A stretch of 54,506 nt of DNA from Planctomycetota bacterium (GTDB lineage Bacteria > Planctomycetota > Planctomycetia > Planctomycetales > Planctomycetaceae), in NCBI GenBank assembly GCA_018242565.1, contig JAFEBR010000982.1, positions 1 through 54,506 of the forward strand, read 5' to 3'. Position numbers and translations under genes: made by a program. The notes under the pieces are model-generated. The model was not told the origin of the DNA. It saw nothing but the letters and a program-made list of their open reading frames with translations, and did not search any database. This document shows, one piece after another, positions 45,726 to 52,931 of this stretch (the stretch's first letter is position 1; each line of letters begins with the position of its first letter).

Positions 45726-47462
45726 TCACTGGGCCGTGAAGATCGGATTTCCTTCCTTGATCGTCTGCCGCACCTGAATGTCTTTGATCTCCAATGGTTT
45801 CACCTTCAGGGGATTCCGATCGAGAATTACCAGGTCCGCCAGTTTGCCAACTTCCAGTGAGCCTTTCCGATCCTCTTCGCCATACTGTTCCGCCCCCCAG
45901 ATCGTCATGGCCTTCAAGCCTTCCAGCGGGGTGATTTTCTGGTCGAGGCCGATGGGGGCGCCCGCGCGCGAAATTCGGTTCACGGCGGTCCACAGCATGA
46001 ACAACTGATCCAGCGGCACGACCGGCGCATCGGTGTGGTTCGTGGGGTGCAAACCGCCATCAATGGCGTCGCGCATCGGGCTGATATACATCGCCTGCCG
46101 CTCGCCCCGGTTCGCAATATGGGCCTCGGCGAAGTAATAGGTGTGCAGCGTGAAAAACGAGGGTCGAATTTTGTATTTCTTATAGACCGGGATGTGGTCT
46201 TTCCGCAGGAACTGAGAATGGACGGCGGTCACGTTGCGATACCGTGTGGGATCATCGGCCGCCGCAAATTCGTGAGCCTGGATCAACGAGTCAATCGCCG
46301 CGTCGCCGTTCACGTGAAACGTGACAGGAACATGCAGTTCATACACCTTTTTGAGGCCCTGGTTGATATACGACTGGGGGGCGAACAACTCCCCTTTCCA
46401 GTCCTGCTCACCAGCGGGCCCTCCCGTCAGGTACGGCGTCGTGAACGCCGCGGTGCGTCCCTGCGGCGAACCATCGATGGTGATCTTCACGCCGCCAATC
46501 TTGAACCGGTCGTAATACTTCAACCAGCGCTCCGTGGGATATTCTTTGAGGATCCGCTCGAGGTCGGTAATGAACGGATACGCGATCACATCGATACTGT
46601 AAGCGCCCGCTGCCGCCGTCCGCTGCAGAGCCTGGATCTGCCCCAGATGGGTGGCCCCTTCTTGAGCCGTGGTGATGCCGGCCGCGGCGTACATGCGATG
46701 CGCCGCGTGCGTCCCGGCGATTTCCTGCGCCGGTGTGAGAGGCGGGGTCTTTTCAAAGATCGGCAAGAACGCCGTCTCCATGATTAACCCCCACGGTTCT
46801 TCCGTCCCGGGTTTTCGCACAATGATCCCGCCGGGTGGCGTTTTCGTCTCGGCGCTGTAACCGAATTTTTTCAGAGCCAGGCTGTTGAGCACGGCTCCGT
46901 GCATTGAGACATGGTCGATGCGCACCGGATTGTCCGGGAACGCGGCGTCGAGATCGTCACGATTCAGCAAGCGGCCTTCCGGCATGACGGTGTCGTCGTA
47001 ACCAAAACCGGTGATCATTTCCCCTTTGGGAATCTGATGCTCCGCCACAAATTTCCGGATCTCGGCGATGATACTGTCCACATCTTTTCCCGGTCCGGCC
47101 GGTGGTGGATACAGCTTCACCTGCTGGGCCAGTGTCAGCGTATTGACGTAGTGCGAATGCGCGTCGATGAAGGCGGGCAGCAATGTGCGTCCCGCCAGTT
47201 CGACGACTCGCGTGTCTTTTCCTTTCAGGCGGGCGATTTCACTTTTCTTCCCCACGGCCAGAATCTTGCCGTCTTTGACGGCCAGCGCTTCGACCACCGG
47301 TTGCGCATCATTGATGGTGACAATGTCGCCCCCCCAATAAATCGAGTCAGCGACCTGCGCCGACGCGGTTCGCGCCATTCCACCGGCGAGCAGGCCCAGC
47401 CAGACGGCAGTCCCGAATGAAAGACGAGACAGAGTTTTCGAGAACCACCCACAATGATGCAT
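45726..47462 (-). CDS. Exported YtcJ-like amidohydrolase
   Basis: The 578-residue protein has a signal peptide (about 1-34, ending TASAQ) and the amidohydrolase_3 layout. VADSIYWGGDIVTIND and VKDGKILAVGKKSEI form the N-terminal beta-sandwich. FIDAHSHYVNT carries the HxH metal site, GVKITIDGSPQGRTA the next conserved block, and HVNGDAAID and NHTDAPVVP metal-binding His/Asp residues. The C-terminal LEGLKAMTIWGAEQYGEEDRKGS is the sandwich return. It is the last gene of a four-gene operon of exported enzymes. The substrate (an amide, carbamate or ester) cannot be read. AGGA precedes the ATG at 47462. Confidence 0.88.
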   Translation of the reverse strand: MHHCGWFSKTLSRLSFGTAVWLGLLAGGMARTASAQVADSIYWGGDIVTINDAQPVVEALAVKDGKILAVGKKSEIARLKGKDTRVVELAGRTLLPAFIDAHSHYVNTLTLAQQVKLYPPPAGPGKDVDSIIAEIRKFVAEHQIPKGEMITGFGYDDTVMPEGRLLNRDDLDAAFPDNPVRIDHVSMHGAVLNSLALKKFGYSAETKTPPGGIIVRKPGTEEPWGLIMETAFLPIFEKTPPLTPAQEIAGTHAAHRMYAAAGITTAQEGATHLGQIQALQRTAAAGAYSIDVIAYPFITDLERILKEYPTERWLKYYDRFKIGGVKITIDGSPQGRTAAFTTPYLTGGPAGEQDWKGELFAPQSYINQGLKKVYELHVPVTFHVNGDAAIDSLIQAHEFAAADDPTRYRNVTAVHSQFLRKDHIPVYKKYKIRPSFFTLHTYYFAEAHIANRGERQAMYISPMRDAIDGGLHPTNHTDAPVVPLDQLFMLWTAVNRISRAGAPIGLDQKITPLEGLKAMTIWGAEQYGEEDRKGSLEVGKLADLVILDRNPLKVKPLEIKDIQVRQTIKEGNPIFTAQ

Positions 47463-47499
47463 ATCGTCGATCCTGATCAACAGCCACAAAAAATGAATA

Positions 47500-48258
47500 T
47501 CAGTCGAGAAATCGTACCGTCCCGGTTGCCAACTCATAGACCGCACCGACGAGGGTGACGGTCTTGTCTTCCAGGCGTTGCTTCCCTTCCGGACTCGCGA
47601 TGAGTTGCCGCATCGACCACCGGACATTGGCCTCAACGGCCTGATGCACGCGGTCGGCACCGTTCACATTCTCGGGAATCCCGGCCAGTCCCGGTTTGAT
47701 GCGATCGATCAGCAGGTTGATGTACCGGGGCTCGGTCCCTTGGCCCGACAGGCTTTCCAGCGTCGCCGTCACGGCACCGCACCCCTCATGTCCCATGATC
47801 ACCAGCAGCGGCGTTCGCAGATGCATCAAGGCGTACTGAATACTCCCCAAGACATCCGAGGCGATCAAATTGCCCGCGACGCGAATCACAAACAGATCGC
47901 CAAAGCCCTGGTCAAACACCAGTTCGGGGGGCACCCGCGAATCACTGCATGCCAGAATCGTTGCAAATGGCTGCTGACCGGCCGTCAGGTGGTCGCGCCA
48001 TACCGCGGCCTGGTGCGCATGCCGGACGGTCCCCTCGGCGAACCGCCGATTTCCCTCTTTGAGCCGCCGCAGGGCTTCGGCGGCATCCTTGGGCGGTGGC
48101 GGCACTTCACTGGGCGCAGCGGTCACTCCCGAAGGATTCAGCATCCAGGGGAGAGTCAGCCCCGCGACTCCCAGGAGGCACTCACGGCGGGTATTTCGAG
48201 GCGTCTCATCCACAGTACGGTTCCTGATGACGGTCAGACATGAAGATTTCATCATCAT
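47500..48258 (-). CDS. Exported beta-class carbonic anhydrase
   Basis: The 252-residue protein has zinc ligands in ACSDSRVPPE (Cys and Asp) and HEGCGAV (His and Cys), FVIRVAGNL and GSIQYAL, all of beta-carbonic anhydrase. The N-terminus NTRRECLLGVAGLTLPW resembles a Tat signal, so the folded zinc enzyme is probably exported to the periplasm. It interconverts CO2 and bicarbonate. It lies between two exported amidohydrolase genes with spacings of 46 and 37 bases; CO2 release from a carbamate product would be one reason. Three consecutive ATGs (48258, 48255, 48252) leave the start uncertain by two codons. Confidence 0.92.
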   Translation of the reverse strand: MMMKSSCLTVIRNRTVDETPRNTRRECLLGVAGLTLPWMLNPSGVTAAPSEVPPPPKDAAEALRRLKEGNRRFAEGTVRHAHQAAVWRDHLTAGQQPFATILACSDSRVPPELVFDQGFGDLFVIRVAGNLIASDVLGSIQYALMHLRTPLLVIMGHEGCGAVTATLESLSGQGTEPRYINLLIDRIKPGLAGIPENVNGADRVHQAVEANVRWSMRQLIASPEGKQRLEDKTVTLVGAVYELATGTVRFLD

Positions 48259-48304
48259 CGCGCGAGTCGCGACTCACTTGCAAGCGCCCCGCCCTGACCT
48301 CGGA

Positions 48305-50308
48305 TTAATGTCCGAGCCGCGCTTCGCGATCTGACTCTTGTTGGATTGCCAGCCATTGAGCGAACCGTTCACCAACACGGCAGCCACAGCCGGGCCCGCA
48401 CGACTGCAATCCGGTCTGCGGTGCCGCGGCCCCCAGCAGGCCCCGTTGCCTTGGCTCATCATCAAACCACCGGCCGCGAAATTTCTGCGATTGAGTCACT
48501 TCAGACTCTGCCGGAATTCGAGTCGTCGCCGCCGTTTTGCGATTGGGAACCGGCTGCATGCGGCCTTCGAGCATCGTGCCCCAGATGGCCACGTCTCTCA
48601 GGTCGCGCGGGGGCACCTCATAGGGGTCTTTCTCCAGCACCGTCAGATTCGCACGTTTCCCGACCTCGATGGAGCCGATCTCTTTTTCCTGCCTGATGGA
48701 ATACGCCGCGTTGATGGTGATCGCGCGTAACGCGACATCGAGTGGCACCCGATGTTCCGGTCCCGCGACCGGCCCTTCCAGTGTCAGTCGATTCACACCC
48801 GACCAAAGCAATTGCAGCGGCTTCGCCGGTGCCATCGGCATGTCTGAATGAAACGACAGCGAACCCCCGTGGTCAAGGACATATTTGTGTGGCGCGATGT
48901 TGCGGGCACGGTCCGGTCCCAGACCGATCTTTTCATACGGCCCGGCGAGTGCCGTGACGTAGTACGGATTCGAACTCACGATGCCCCCCAGCTCGATCCA
49001 GGCCTGCGTTTGCTGCGGCTGGGCGAACCCGAAATGCACAATCGTCGTGCGATGATCATTCCGCGGGGCACGTTGCATCGCCTTCTGCAATTCACCCAGC
49101 ACAACCTCGAAACCGGCATCTCCGTTGGTGTGAATATGGATCTGATACCCCGCATCCCAATATCCCTGAAAGGCATAGCCGAACACGGGGGGATCCATCA
49201 ACCAGGCCCCCTGATGTCCGTCAGTGTAACCCTCTTTCATCATCATCAACTGACTGTAGATCGCTCCGTCACAGAACAGCTTCACCTGCTTCGGCAGGTA
49301 CGCCGTGCGCCCCTGCCCCCAGTTCAGGACCTGCTCACTTTCGGCCACCATCGCGCGCGGATCCTGCGGATTTCGAGCGGCCAGCGTCTTGCCATCGACG
49401 AGGAAATAGTGGTTAAACGGCGTCGCATCGACGCCGTAGACCTCATTGATCATGTCCTGCAGCGTTTTCGAAAAGAAACCGCCCGGCTCGCAGCAACTCG
49501 TGAGACCGTTCTGGTGGTAGTACCGCACTGTGTATTCCAACCCCTCCCGAAAGCGGGCCGGTGTCGCCACTTCCGGCGCGAGTTGGTTCAACACCGCCAG
49601 CGCTCCCTGTTCGAAAAAATGGCCCGCCTCCAGATCGATCTGTGCCTGCGCGCTGCGCGGCAACTTCGCGACAAGCGCCGCGTCGAGGCCCGTTTTCCGC
49701 AACGCCAGACTGTTCAGATAAAACTCGTGGCACGAACGATGCCACACGATCACGGGGAAGTCGGGGGCCAACTGGTCGAGCCGTTTCCGCGACAGCGGCC
49801 CATGCAGATAGTGGTGATAACCCCAGGTGATAAATGTCTGCGAGCGATCGGTGTGCTCGCGCAACGCCTGCTCCAGCCGGGATTGATACGTCTTCGCGTC
49901 TCGCACGCCCGGCGAGAATCCCGCGATGGCCTCCCAGTCTTCGATCGCAATCACCCGGGTATTCATGGTGAGCGCGGCGAGGACGGGATGCACGTGCTGA
50001 TCGATGAAACCGGCGCTGACAATTTTGTCGGCCAAGGTGCGGTCCACCCGCGCTTCCTGACCGACGGCAGCCCGCACCTCAGCCAAAGTACCGACGGCGA
50101 CGAAGCGCCCATCGCGTACCGCCACGGCCTCGGCCCGCGGCTTCCGCGCATCCATCGTGATGATCGATTTCGCCACGTAAACCGTCGTGACACTGCGGCG
50201 TGCCAGCAGGCTGCCAACATCCTGCAGGGACGGAGACTGCGCGCTGGCAACATCTGCCAGGACGAGCGCCAGTAATACAGTCCACGTGAACCCGCGAGCC
50301 CAATACAT
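48305..50308 (-). CDS. Exported YtcJ-like amidohydrolase, second copy
   Basis: The 667-residue protein has a signal peptide (about 1-24, VASAQS). VYVAKSIITMDARKPRAEAV opens the sandwich. The metal site is FIDQHVHPV, and HIHTNGDAG and SFHSDMPM follow. The C-terminal EIGSIEVGKRANLTVLEKDP closes the family domain. Beyond it lies an extra tail of about 70 residues with SCGPGCGC near the end, absent from the other copy in the operon. AGGAG lies 9 bases before the ATG at 50308. It is the second gene of the operon, 29 bases after the HAD gene. Confidence 0.88.
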   Translation of the reverse strand: MYWARGFTWTVLLALVLADVASAQSPSLQDVGSLLARRSVTTVYVAKSIITMDARKPRAEAVAVRDGRFVAVGTLAEVRAAVGQEARVDRTLADKIVSAGFIDQHVHPVLAALTMNTRVIAIEDWEAIAGFSPGVRDAKTYQSRLEQALREHTDRSQTFITWGYHHYLHGPLSRKRLDQLAPDFPVIVWHRSCHEFYLNSLALRKTGLDAALVAKLPRSAQAQIDLEAGHFFEQGALAVLNQLAPEVATPARFREGLEYTVRYYHQNGLTSCCEPGGFFSKTLQDMINEVYGVDATPFNHYFLVDGKTLAARNPQDPRAMVAESEQVLNWGQGRTAYLPKQVKLFCDGAIYSQLMMMKEGYTDGHQGAWLMDPPVFGYAFQGYWDAGYQIHIHTNGDAGFEVVLGELQKAMQRAPRNDHRTTIVHFGFAQPQQTQAWIELGGIVSSNPYYVTALAGPYEKIGLGPDRARNIAPHKYVLDHGGSLSFHSDMPMAPAKPLQLLWSGVNRLTLEGPVAGPEHRVPLDVALRAITINAAYSIRQEKEIGSIEVGKRANLTVLEKDPYEVPPRDLRDVAIWGTMLEGRMQPVPNRKTAATTRIPAESEVTQSQKFRGRWFDDEPRQRGLLGAAAPQTGLQSCGPGCGCRVGERFAQWLAIQQESDREARLGH

Positions 50309-50337
50309 GAGGGAATACTCCTGCGACCGTGAAGTCA

Positions 50338-51345
50338 TCATGGCTTTTCAATAACGCGATAAATCGTCTTCCAGTCGTCTTTCATGTTCACGATGGTCCA
50401 GCCTCGGGACTGGGCTTCGTCCAACCCCTTGTCGAGCTTGCCAAACAGTGACTGACGGTCGTAGGCCCACTCGCGGACGGCGTCCGTATGATGCACGTAC
50501 AAACAGAAGCGGGGCCCGGAACCGGCAGCGGTCCATTGCAACATCGGCAGGTCACCATCGGAGTTTCCGAAGGCAGCAATCGGCCGACGGCCGATATGCA
50601 GGTTGATGCCCACCGGTTTGCCCGCCTTGTCGTCGAAAAAGTTCAACTCGGGCAACCGCACCAACACCGGTTGGCCCTCTCGGAACTCCAGTTTCGTCTT
50701 AACGCTGCTGCCAATGACCTGTTCGGGGGGAATTCCGTAAACCGCCTCGGTCCAGGGACGCATGAATTCAATACCGCCCCCCGAAACAATGTAAGTTTTA
50801 AAGCCCTGTGCACGAAAGAAGGCCAGCACCTCGAGCATCGGTTGATAGACCATGTCGGTGTAGCGACGACGGGTGATCGGATGCTTCGCCGTGGCGATCC
50901 AATCTTTGACGATCTTTTCAAACTCATCGGTCGTCATGCCCGAATGACTCGCCATCACCAGGGCATACAGCGACTGTTCGCCACCGGCCAGCGCGGTTTT
51001 CAGGTCGCCTCTGAGCACAGACGCAAAGGGTTCTTGATCCTTCCACTCGGGGTGCTGCGGCAAGAGCTGGCGGATCCGGTCGAGCGCGAAAAACGCCTGC
51101 ACGTACATGGGCTGCTCAGCCCAAAGCGTACCGTCATTATCGAAGACGGCAATCCGCTCGGGCACCGGTACAAAATCGGGCGAGCCGGTTGTTGTCACCT
51201 TCGCGACGAAATCCAGAATCGCCGTCTTCGCTGGGCCGTCGTTCCACGATGGCAACGGATCATCCGCCCGCGCACGGGGAGCGACCTGAAAGAGCGCAAC
51301 GAACAGCAGGAAAGTCACACACGCGGGTCTGCGTTTGAATGCCAT
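50338..51345 (-). CDS. Exported HAD-superfamily hydrolase
   Basis: The 335-residue protein has a signal peptide (about 1-27, RARAD). The HAD motif I is VFDNDGTLWAEQP with nucleophile Asp and the second Asp two residues on. Motif II is YIVSGGG, and motif IV is FGNSDGDLPML. The cap region resembles phosphoserine-phosphatase-like HADs. It probably dephosphorylates a small molecule in the periplasm; the substrate is unknown. It is the first gene of the exported-enzyme operon. Upstream lie the 180-bp repeats, so the promoter must be in 51346-51459 or among the repeats. Confidence 0.85.
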   Translation of the reverse strand: MAFKRRPACVTFLLFVALFQVAPRARADDPLPSWNDGPAKTAILDFVAKVTTTGSPDFVPVPERIAVFDNDGTLWAEQPMYVQAFFALDRIRQLLPQHPEWKDQEPFASVLRGDLKTALAGGEQSLYALVMASHSGMTTDEFEKIVKDWIATAKHPITRRRYTDMVYQPMLEVLAFFRAQGFKTYIVSGGGIEFMRPWTEAVYGIPPEQVIGSSVKTKLEFREGQPVLVRLPELNFFDDKAGKPVGINLHIGRRPIAAFGNSDGDLPMLQWTAAGSGPRFCLYVHHTDAVREWAYDRQSLFGKLDKGLDEAQSRGWTIVNMKDDWKTIYRVIEKP

Positions 51346-51459
51346 GATCGTAGTATGTATCGCGAGGATTGTTTTCGGCGGTTGCCAACCACCGCATTAT
51401 TGCGGATTGTGGCGCCCGGGCAAATGGCGGCAAGACAGCACGCTGACACGAATTCAGCC

Positions 51460-51639
51460 CAGCGAGCCGTTGGGTTGACCCCAACGGTTTCAACGTGAAC
51501 TTGGATTTGATTACCGACAACAGACAGTCCTTCGCAGGGAACCGCCCAGCGCATGACAATACGAGGACGGCAGAACCAATGTGATCGCCCTGTTCCCACC
51601 GTACGGGATACCGCCGGGATAAACCCGGGCGGCTCGCTG
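51460..51639. repeat. Tandem 180-bp unit, copy 1
   Basis: The unit begins CAGCGAGCCG and ends CGGCTCGCTG, a perfect 10-bp terminal inverted repeat. Near its left end is a GC-rich hairpin (CCGTTGGGTT with CCCAACGG). Near its right end is a CCGCCGGG...CCCGGGCGG hairpin. A 14-bp spacer separates it from copy 2, so the period is 194 bp. Confidence 0.92.
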
Positions 51640-51653
51640 ACATCAATTCAGCC

Positions 51654-51833
51654 CAGCGAGCCGTTGCGTTGATCCCAACGGTTTCAACGTGAACCTGGAC
51701 TTGCTGACGGACAACTGGCAGTCCTTCGCAGGGAACCGGGTAACGCGCGACAATATGCGGACGGCACAACCAAGGTGATCGCCCTATCCCCACCGGACGG
51801 GATCCCGCCGGGATAAACCCGGGCGGCTCGCTG
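51654..51833. repeat. Tandem 180-bp unit, copy 2
   Basis: Same length and ends as copy 1. Substitutions in the left hairpin (GCGTTGATCC) are partly compensated. Another 14-bp spacer follows. Confidence 0.92.
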
Positions 51834-51847
51834 ACATCAATTCAGCC

Positions 51848-52027
51848 CAGCGAGCCGTTGGGTTTAACCCAACGGTTTCAACGTGAACTTGGATTTGCTG
51901 ACGGACAACTGACAGTCCTTCGCAGGGAACCGGGTAACGCGCGACAATACGAGGACGGCAGAACTAATGTGACCGCCCTGTTCCCATCGCACGGGATCCC
52001 GCCGGGGTAAACCCGGGCGGCTCGCCG
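51848..52027. repeat. Tandem 180-bp unit, copy 3
   Basis: Same length; the right end reads CGGCTCGCCG, one base from the other copies. The left hairpin (TTGGGTTTAACCCAA) is the most symmetric. Confidence 0.92.
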
Positions 52028-52262
52028 GTATGCGTCGTGTATCCCGACAGCCTTCTGAACCGTTGCGCACACGTCAGATCAACGTTGCCAAATTGCAGCG
52101 TCGGTTTGTTTCGGGCTGATTTTGTCGTTTCTCACCCAAAACCCGGAAGTCCCCTGCGGACTCCTTGTTTTTTGTCTGGCACTCACTTAAACACGTTGCT
52201 TAAGCCGTCGTGTTGCACATGATCGCATATCCACATTCATTTTGACCCCGCGGAGCAAACTG

Positions 52263-52931
52263 ATGCGAGTTTGGACGAATGTCTTTGTTTCGATCTGCCT
52301 CGTGGCGGTCTCGGCCAGTTCGGTCCACGCCGATCTCATTGCGGGGAACTTCGGCCCCGGCGATTCGTACCAAACTGGCGGCGGCAATTCCTGGGGAGTC
52401 GGATATGATTTTTCCGTGCCCCCCAGTTACTACTCGATCGCCGTTGCGTTTACCAACACCAGCAGCACCACCTACAGTCTCGATCAGTTCCGGTTCGCCG
52501 CGAATTATTACTCGGGGACCAATTCGCTGACCGCAACTTTCTACGGTGGCTCAAGCGATCTGAACAGTGCGACTCTGCTGGAATCGTTCACCTTCTCGGC
52601 ACCAACTCCGTACGATCAATACATCTATGTCGCAAGTTCGACCGTGCACCCCTGGCTGCTGCCCGGCGAAACTTATTTCATCACCTTGTCAGTCCCCCAG
52701 GACAGTGAAACTCTTTGGGGCTGGCAGTTTAATGATCAAGGACAGACGGGCGGCTGGCTGACACAGATCAACAGTGATCCCTGGTACGAGCTGACGTATG
52801 TCACTCCGGTGTTCGACGTGCATGCCTCGCCTGTCCCCGAACCCTCGACCCTGATCATGTTTTCGTTGCTGATGGTGACGTTGGGCACGGTTGGTGCCTG
52901 CAGTCGGCGAAAACAGACGGTGTCGGCCTGA
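52263..52931 (+). CDS. PEP-CTERM exported protein
   Basis: The 222-residue protein has a signal peptide (about 1-24, SSVHAD). A beta-rich central domain contains GNSWGVGYDFSVPPSYYSI and many aromatic strands. The C-terminus is VPEPSTLIMFSLLMVTLGTV followed by a basic cluster (SRRK): the PEP-CTERM sorting signal. The central region resembles choice-of-anchor R type PEP-CTERM proteins, but that is a loose match. GGAG lies 8 bases before the ATG at 52263. It appears to be monocistronic with a terminator. Confidence 0.85.
   Translation: MRVWTNVFVSICLVAVSASSVHADLIAGNFGPGDSYQTGGGNSWGVGYDFSVPPSYYSIAVAFTNTSSTTYSLDQFRFAANYYSGTNSLTATFYGGSSDLNSATLLESFTFSAPTPYDQYIYVASSTVHPWLLPGETYFITLSVPQDSETLWGWQFNDQGQTGGWLTQINSDPWYELTYVTPVFDVHASPVPEPSTLIMFSLLMVTLGTVGACSRRKQTVSA

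Follow-up and report, generated by a model that had tools for sequence, protein, structure and literature searches.

BIMEs of Escherichia coli consist of REPs that are inverted and clustered. The accessible part of PMC6006769 likewise reports inverted orientation and clustering for BIMEs, and TnpA-REP proteins are thought to move REP doublets via single-stranded hairpins with a guide foot (PMC6006769, PMC3116915, both in their accessible parts). Ordered tandem clusters of REPINs, flanks included, are known from Pseudomonas fluorescens SBW25, for which the accessible text counts 16 such clusters, adjoining RAYT genes and reaching four units over 700 bp in the largest, and gives 93% of 430 doublets as inverted (PMC3116915). 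Class 3 TnpA-Y1 proteins, found mainly in Planctomycetes, Acidobacteria and Proteobacteria, share an HUH motif, W[TA] and an extended N-terminal conservation, and their genes are flanked by atypical hairpins that are possibly numerous in the genome (PMC6006769, accessible part). The GTAG and CGTC superfamilies of REPs, with Planctomycetes among their hosts, are short extragenic palindromes with a constant unpaired end tag, often arranged as inverted pairs (PMC3733652, accessible part). The GTGGCGAG-type REPs of Pseudomonas (PF6, PF7, PF17 / Pflu2) carry GCGAG directly before the palindrome, their conserved tag being GTGG in front of CGAG (PMC3686654, PMC2817692, accessible parts). In the accessible portions of this literature, little is said about the hairpin systems of planctomycetes.

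The window analysed here, a stretch of 54,506 nucleotides from a Planctomycetota bacterium, holds an array that we read, with a probability of roughly 0.85, as a tandem cluster of three REPINs, i.e. REP doublets whose foot is AGCGAG, or GGCGAG in the last copy, and whose 8-bp stem covaries. It shares with the SBW25 clusters the inverted REP doublet as its unit, but belongs to another phylum, has a different foot and comes from a draft genome in which no matching RAYT was found; from the BIMEs of E. coli it differs in REP sequence, tag and transposase lineage. The features of the locus are the following:

51441..52027, no strand: probable ordered tandem cluster of three REPINs with a 194-bp period, from TRF and unit comparison; its left edge is a 19-bp remnant
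51441..51459, no strand: remnant left of unit 1, made up of 5 unit-end bases and a stretch that matches the spacer at 12 of 14 positions
51460..51639, plus strand: REPIN unit 1, from unit comparison
51461..51487, plus strand: left REP of unit 1, AGCGAG foot and 8-bp stem CCGTTGGG/CCCAACGG
51611..51638, minus strand: right REP of unit 1, inverted, AGCGAGCCGCCCGGGTTTATCCCGGCGG
51640..51653, no strand: spacer 1, 14 bp, ACATCAATTCAGCC
51654..51833, plus strand: REPIN unit 2, from unit comparison
51655..51681, plus strand: left REP of unit 2, one stem pair broken
51805..51832, minus strand: right REP of unit 2, inverted
51834..51847, no strand: spacer 2, 14 bp, identical to spacer 1
51848..52027, plus strand: REPIN unit 3, right end with one mismatch, from unit comparison
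51849..51875, plus strand: left REP of unit 3
51999..52026, minus strand: right REP of unit 3, inverted, GGCGAG foot
50338..51345, minus strand: HAD-like hydrolase gene (Pfam HAD, E 3.9e-12), left neighbour, reading away from the array
52242..52931, plus strand: right-neighbour ORF with the look of a secreted protein, reading away from the array

TRF placed the array at 51441-52025 with a period of 194, 3.0 copies and a score of 946, against a best score of 58 among the three other rows that it returned for the window. As the original prediction held, three tandem 180-bp units follow one another at an exact 194-bp period: they align without gaps, their starts lie 194 and again 194 bp apart, and they are 87.2, 89.4 and 90.0% identical in pairs (23, 19 and 18 differences of 180). 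The 10-bp inverted ends that it described (CAGCGAGCCG/CGGCTCGCTG) are free of mismatches in copies 1 and 2 and have one at the right end of copy 3, and its constant 14-bp spacer is borne out by two spacers identical to each other; the 14 bases 3' of copy 3 bear no resemblance to them. The two hairpins per unit that it had placed in the interior are real but sit at the unit ends, their stems starting with the last three bases of the 10-mers. Partly compensated hairpin substitutions, which it had also suspected, are not seen among the three copies, whose hairpins differ instead in their loops and by one pair-breaking stem change in copy 2, yet compensated changes are strong across the wider hairpin family. 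The array sits between two divergent genes, and a scan of 51300-52300 returned one weak promoter-like and three terminator-like sites, none of them inside the array. The right-hand ORF has no Pfam match at E 0.001 and ends in what we take, by eye, to be a PEP-CTERM-like tail. Elsewhere in the window, a carbonic anhydrase gene flanked by two Amidohydro_3 genes occupies 45726-50341 on the minus strand.

Hairpins of this kind are dispersed through the genome, which is available as a 9.3 Mb draft in 1252 contigs. The REP search motif AGCGAGCYRN{2,4}GGGTTBAHCC has 97 matches on 47 contigs, compared with 0 for the reversed pattern that served as control, and the REPs are 27-28 nt long. BLAST of the unit against the draft returned at least 72 matches (40 of 79 first-look candidates scored); among the 40 scored, full-length matches (181-194 bases) are the three array copies only, the others cover query positions 1-47 or 135-194, which are the unit ends, and the 130-bp linker was not found elsewhere. 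The genome-wide count called for by the original prediction thus yields many copies of the end motif, but, within the same scored candidates, no further copy of the whole unit. Neighbouring motif matches spanning at most 450 bp make up 40 pairs, of which 34 are inverted: 22 have their feet outward, 18 of these spanning 210-226 bp, and 12 inward, while 4 + 2 point in the same direction, one of the two '--' pairs being the window itself, where the exact motif misses 2 of the 6 hairpins. Placement is mainly extragenic, since ORFs of at least 250 aa contain 4 of 62 REPs though they cover 66.9% of the DNA examined, and those of at least 200 aa contain 8 of 62 with a coverage of 73.3%. The window hairpins thus have the traits by which REPs are recognised, namely many copies, a mainly extragenic location and a constant foot with a variable paired stem, and each of the three units consists of two inverted REPs, as expected of a REPIN.

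The stem is also conserved as a structure. In a set of 31 different hairpins taken from genomes within the taxonomic family, 98.8% of the pair cells are paired and 4 of the 8 stem pairs have changes on both sides; cells with changes on both sides number 27 against a shuffled mean of 6.1, with 0 of 500 shuffles as high and sliding controls far lower, in a set where the search pattern fixes the foot AGCGAG and the inner stem and leaves five outer pairs free on their 3' side, one of which never varies. The covariation anticipated for the array is strong across the family and absent within the array itself. Of the 170 family genomes, only 6 contain the exact motif. One genome (G101) has 74 matches, including 15 doublets of 63-64 bp. 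Scanning 84,980 species, each represented by one genome, gave at least 115 motif stretches, and the 80 among the matches listed all carry planctomycete names (we take Alienimonas and Lacipirellula to be planctomycetes); in these 80 loci, pairs closer than 450 bp are foot-outward in 19 of 19 cases. One of the listed records seems to be G101, its coordinates being equal, so that the two counts overlap. A GCGAG-hairpin tandem array much like that of the window, with a 149-bp period and 3.6 copies, was seen in another genome directly after a class-3-like TnpA gene (G014, L144 1430-1965).

The foot recurs beside TnpA genes. Class-3-like TnpA relatives were detected at E 1e-5 in 71 of the 170 family genomes with one query and in 87 with another. 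At the loci of the best 50 genes, a GCGAG-foot hairpin lies within 500 bp in 29 cases, and such hairpins number 81 in the 46.0 kb near the genes (at most 500 bp) versus 12 in the 70.7 kb farther away, counts that include a few weak or chance hairpins. With a stricter hairpin rule that left the foot free, GCGAG came out as the top pentamer (56 hairpins at 22 of 54 class-3-like loci), the strict GCGAG hairpin being absent near the other 32. By comparison, among 31 other Y1 loci, drawn from five genomes, feet with GTAG are the most frequent (29 hairpins, 7 loci), and GCGAG was found within 500 bp at 2 loci (2 hairpins; C866, L081). The first of these, C866, is an ordinary Y1 gene of the window's own genome and lies about 200 bp from a REPIN like those of the window, so class-3-like genes are not the only Y1 genes with such hairpins nearby. 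The own genome has 7 Pfam Y1_Tnp genes, which we rejected as partners: C866 alone has a REPIN of this kind, and hairpins of other kinds lie nearer to it. ORFs lying between REPs on contigs C588 and C489 were also set aside as candidates, with no Pfam or NCBIfam match at E 0.01. At one further locus, a gene for a TnpA of class 3 type is accompanied on both sides by many GCGCCAGCGAGGCCG-type copies, perhaps another type of foot or hairpin (G149, L207 900-2550).

A closer tie exists for the loop type. In one TnpA clade (support 100/97), each of the four members found has REPs of the GGGTTTA type, which is that of the window, close to its gene. This places the window's hairpin type next to an HUH/Y1 TnpA clade in four other planctomycete genomes, an arrangement of same-type REPs beside tnpA as in a REPtron; the loop type of these four was read by eye from the hairpins. 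One member (G101 C163) has inverted pairs of 168 and 179 bp, one on either side, and a second (G005 C160) has GGGTTTA-type REPs beside the gene, while the other two came from the 80 REP-selected loci and one of them (L276) is readable on one side only. With automatic loop labels, the 4 TTTA rows need 3 changes on the tree, and 23 of 500 shuffles are as low; these labels do not fall into one clade because a chance hairpin gave L189 its label and L159 came out as 'both'. We also noted, next to the gene for a TnpA of the matching clade, 40-bp tandem repeats in 5.7 copies that resemble REP halves (L221 5897-6122).

All four clade members carry HxH, WWT and Y-x-x-x-Q, the last as YVAEQ, YTADQ, YIREQ and YIRNQ. 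They have the NHVH-like HUH motif and the WT/WA of class 3, but the Q standing four residues after the Y does not follow the printed YV[VI][AENY]EQ, and the foot is GCGAG where CnGA is printed (PMC6006769, accessible part); we therefore do not file the linked TnpA under class 3. In the two members scanned, NCBIfam REP_Tyr_transpos gives a weak match below its cut-off and Pfam Y1_Tnp gives none. The clade profile aligns at 99.9% probability with a sister clade that Pfam does detect, and at 99.5% with a protein of the stricter class 3 kind. In sequence searches of the PDB, 2f4f was matched weakly by the clade profile (E 0.079) and at E 1.6e-4 by that of the sister clade, a single clade protein retrieving nothing useful; the predicted structure of one TnpA (two sequences) had a mean pLDDT of 37.7, too poor for a structure search. 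A TnpA of the matching clade was found neither in the window's draft genome of 1252 contigs, which thus departs from a REPtron in this respect, nor in its genus-mate. The only class-3-like TnpA of the own genome is a partial gene cut by a contig end (C586), which falls in with the other loop type and lacks a GCGAG hairpin on its readable side. The matching gene could sit in an assembly gap, since several hairpin copies lie near contig ends (e.g., C140, C153, C374, C508, C575), or it could have been lost, and the doublets of this genome may now be orphans or relics.

By analogy with TnpA-REP, a TnpA of this clade would recognise the hairpin in single-stranded DNA with GCGAG as its guide, and would cut and join at the REPs, so that the doublet would be the moving unit and could spread without target duplications. 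At the window, one REPIN probably arrived first, and the 194-bp block of REPIN and 14-bp flank would then have been duplicated on the spot, whether by slippage, by unequal recombination or through a TnpA; we infer this local step because the linker was not found elsewhere in the genome. As for an empty site, none emerged from the comparison with the genus-mate, where the left-hand gene is without an ortholog at E 1e-40, and a second REPIN locus is only half syntenic. Taken as REP doublets, the units make both the missing target duplications and the tandem clustering, which had been considered odd, unsurprising. A protein-binding array, one of the alternatives raised at the outset, is compatible with the REPIN reading, the predicted binder being an HUH transposase acting on single-stranded DNA.

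The array might also be a local tandem duplication whose hairpins are kept for a host function, such as protein binding or protection of mRNA ends, with no mobility now. The restriction of the linker to the array and the failure to find a matching TnpA in the assembly speak for it, and REPs are reported to bind IHF, Pol I and gyrase (PMC6006769, accessible part). It leaves unexplained, however, the 97 dispersed motif matches with their inverted pairing and the TnpA linkage in four genomes. As a full account we consider it improbable, although a host function could hold for the present state of the array alongside its origin as REPINs.

Equally improbable, and not supported by the data, is a classical MITE, i.e. 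a non-autonomous DNA transposon with TIRs, moved by a DDE enzyme and here nested or tandemly duplicated. The 10-bp inverted ends of each unit would suit it, as would the other elements of the genome: 15 of 18 paired elements that we aligned are 212-228 bp long, the linkers of most look homologous by eye, and some have 34-35-nt inverted arms that are 94% complementary. But the linker of the window unit is not homologous to theirs and only its ends are in common with them; no target duplication is seen, spacer sequence being present to the left of the array and none to the right; and unpaired hairpins exist in the own genome, as do doublets of 63-64 bp in G101. Each end is, moreover, itself a covarying hairpin, and the linked gene is HUH/Y1-like. 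The original prediction was thus right about the kind of element, a non-autonomous one, as the dispersed matches in inverted pairs indicate, and a REPIN fits it better than a TIR element or MITE.

A structured-RNA reading, with every unit transcribed as a non-coding RNA or a riboswitch-like element, was the other alternative raised at the outset; it is very unlikely and likewise not supported. The units do fold better than their own shuffles (z -3.3, -3.7 and -3.1), as does unit 2 on its minus strand (z -2.7), but Rfam has no match in the window at gathering scores and none in the array at E up to 1, the three copies have different MFE structures, the array is bounded by divergent genes, and the covariation is that of the REP stem common to dispersed copies, with none inside the array.

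With the array read as three REPINs, the population to which it belongs is of a known kind, and what is new is a tag outside the printed GTAG, CGTC and CnGA sets. The hairpins resemble the GTAG and CGTC superfamilies in their general build, yet their tag GCGAG is neither of the two and they are not members (PMC3733652, accessible part). GCGAG before a palindrome is not unheard of, since the Pseudomonas GTGGCGAG REPs have it; the GT of their tag is missing here, GTG preceding GCGAG in 0 of 61 hairpins at class-3-like loci, 1 of 82 in the own genome and 1 of 155 on named contigs. The accessible part of the open-access literature contains no REP family tagged GCGAG alone, and the supplement of PMC6006769, which tabulates the class 3 hairpins, may hold a match. 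We tentatively put forward, at slightly less than even odds, that GCGAG REPs form a third REP superfamily, largely planctomycete, with its own deep HUH TnpA lineage partly below Pfam detection, whose subclades would have co-diversified with the loops (GGGTTTA versus GTNA). If this were true, a loop and foot recognition code of the TnpA enzymes would be directly testable. An odd tandem repeat is in this way assigned to a probably mobile system of hairpins, in which a tag outside the printed sets is linked to a transposase clade that escapes the standard Pfam model, and the natural pairs of TnpA clade and loop type offer a ready comparison of how single-strand transposases read hairpins.

Several other repeats came to light in the own genome. 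A second long-period hairpin array, with a 347-bp period and 2.4 copies, lies on contig C101 (L163 974-1787). A Y1 transposase gene (C754, L057 ~900-2220) stands amid several TCATCTCGGCGGAGCGAGATGA-like palindromes of either orientation, which seem to form another REP family of this genome and have similar copies in the genus-mate (L084). Around 90 bp from single REPs we found, on several contigs, a shared hairpin, GTGG-GACAAGTTTnCAACTTGTC (L038 4662 and 5774, L047 4071, L049 7846). A C7/G7 hairpin (CCCCCCCTTTCGAAGGGGGGG-like) recurs beside 215-bp REPINs on four contigs (C296, C489, C42 and C508; L033, L031, L035 and L032), and on C296 the whole block repeats with a 391-bp period.
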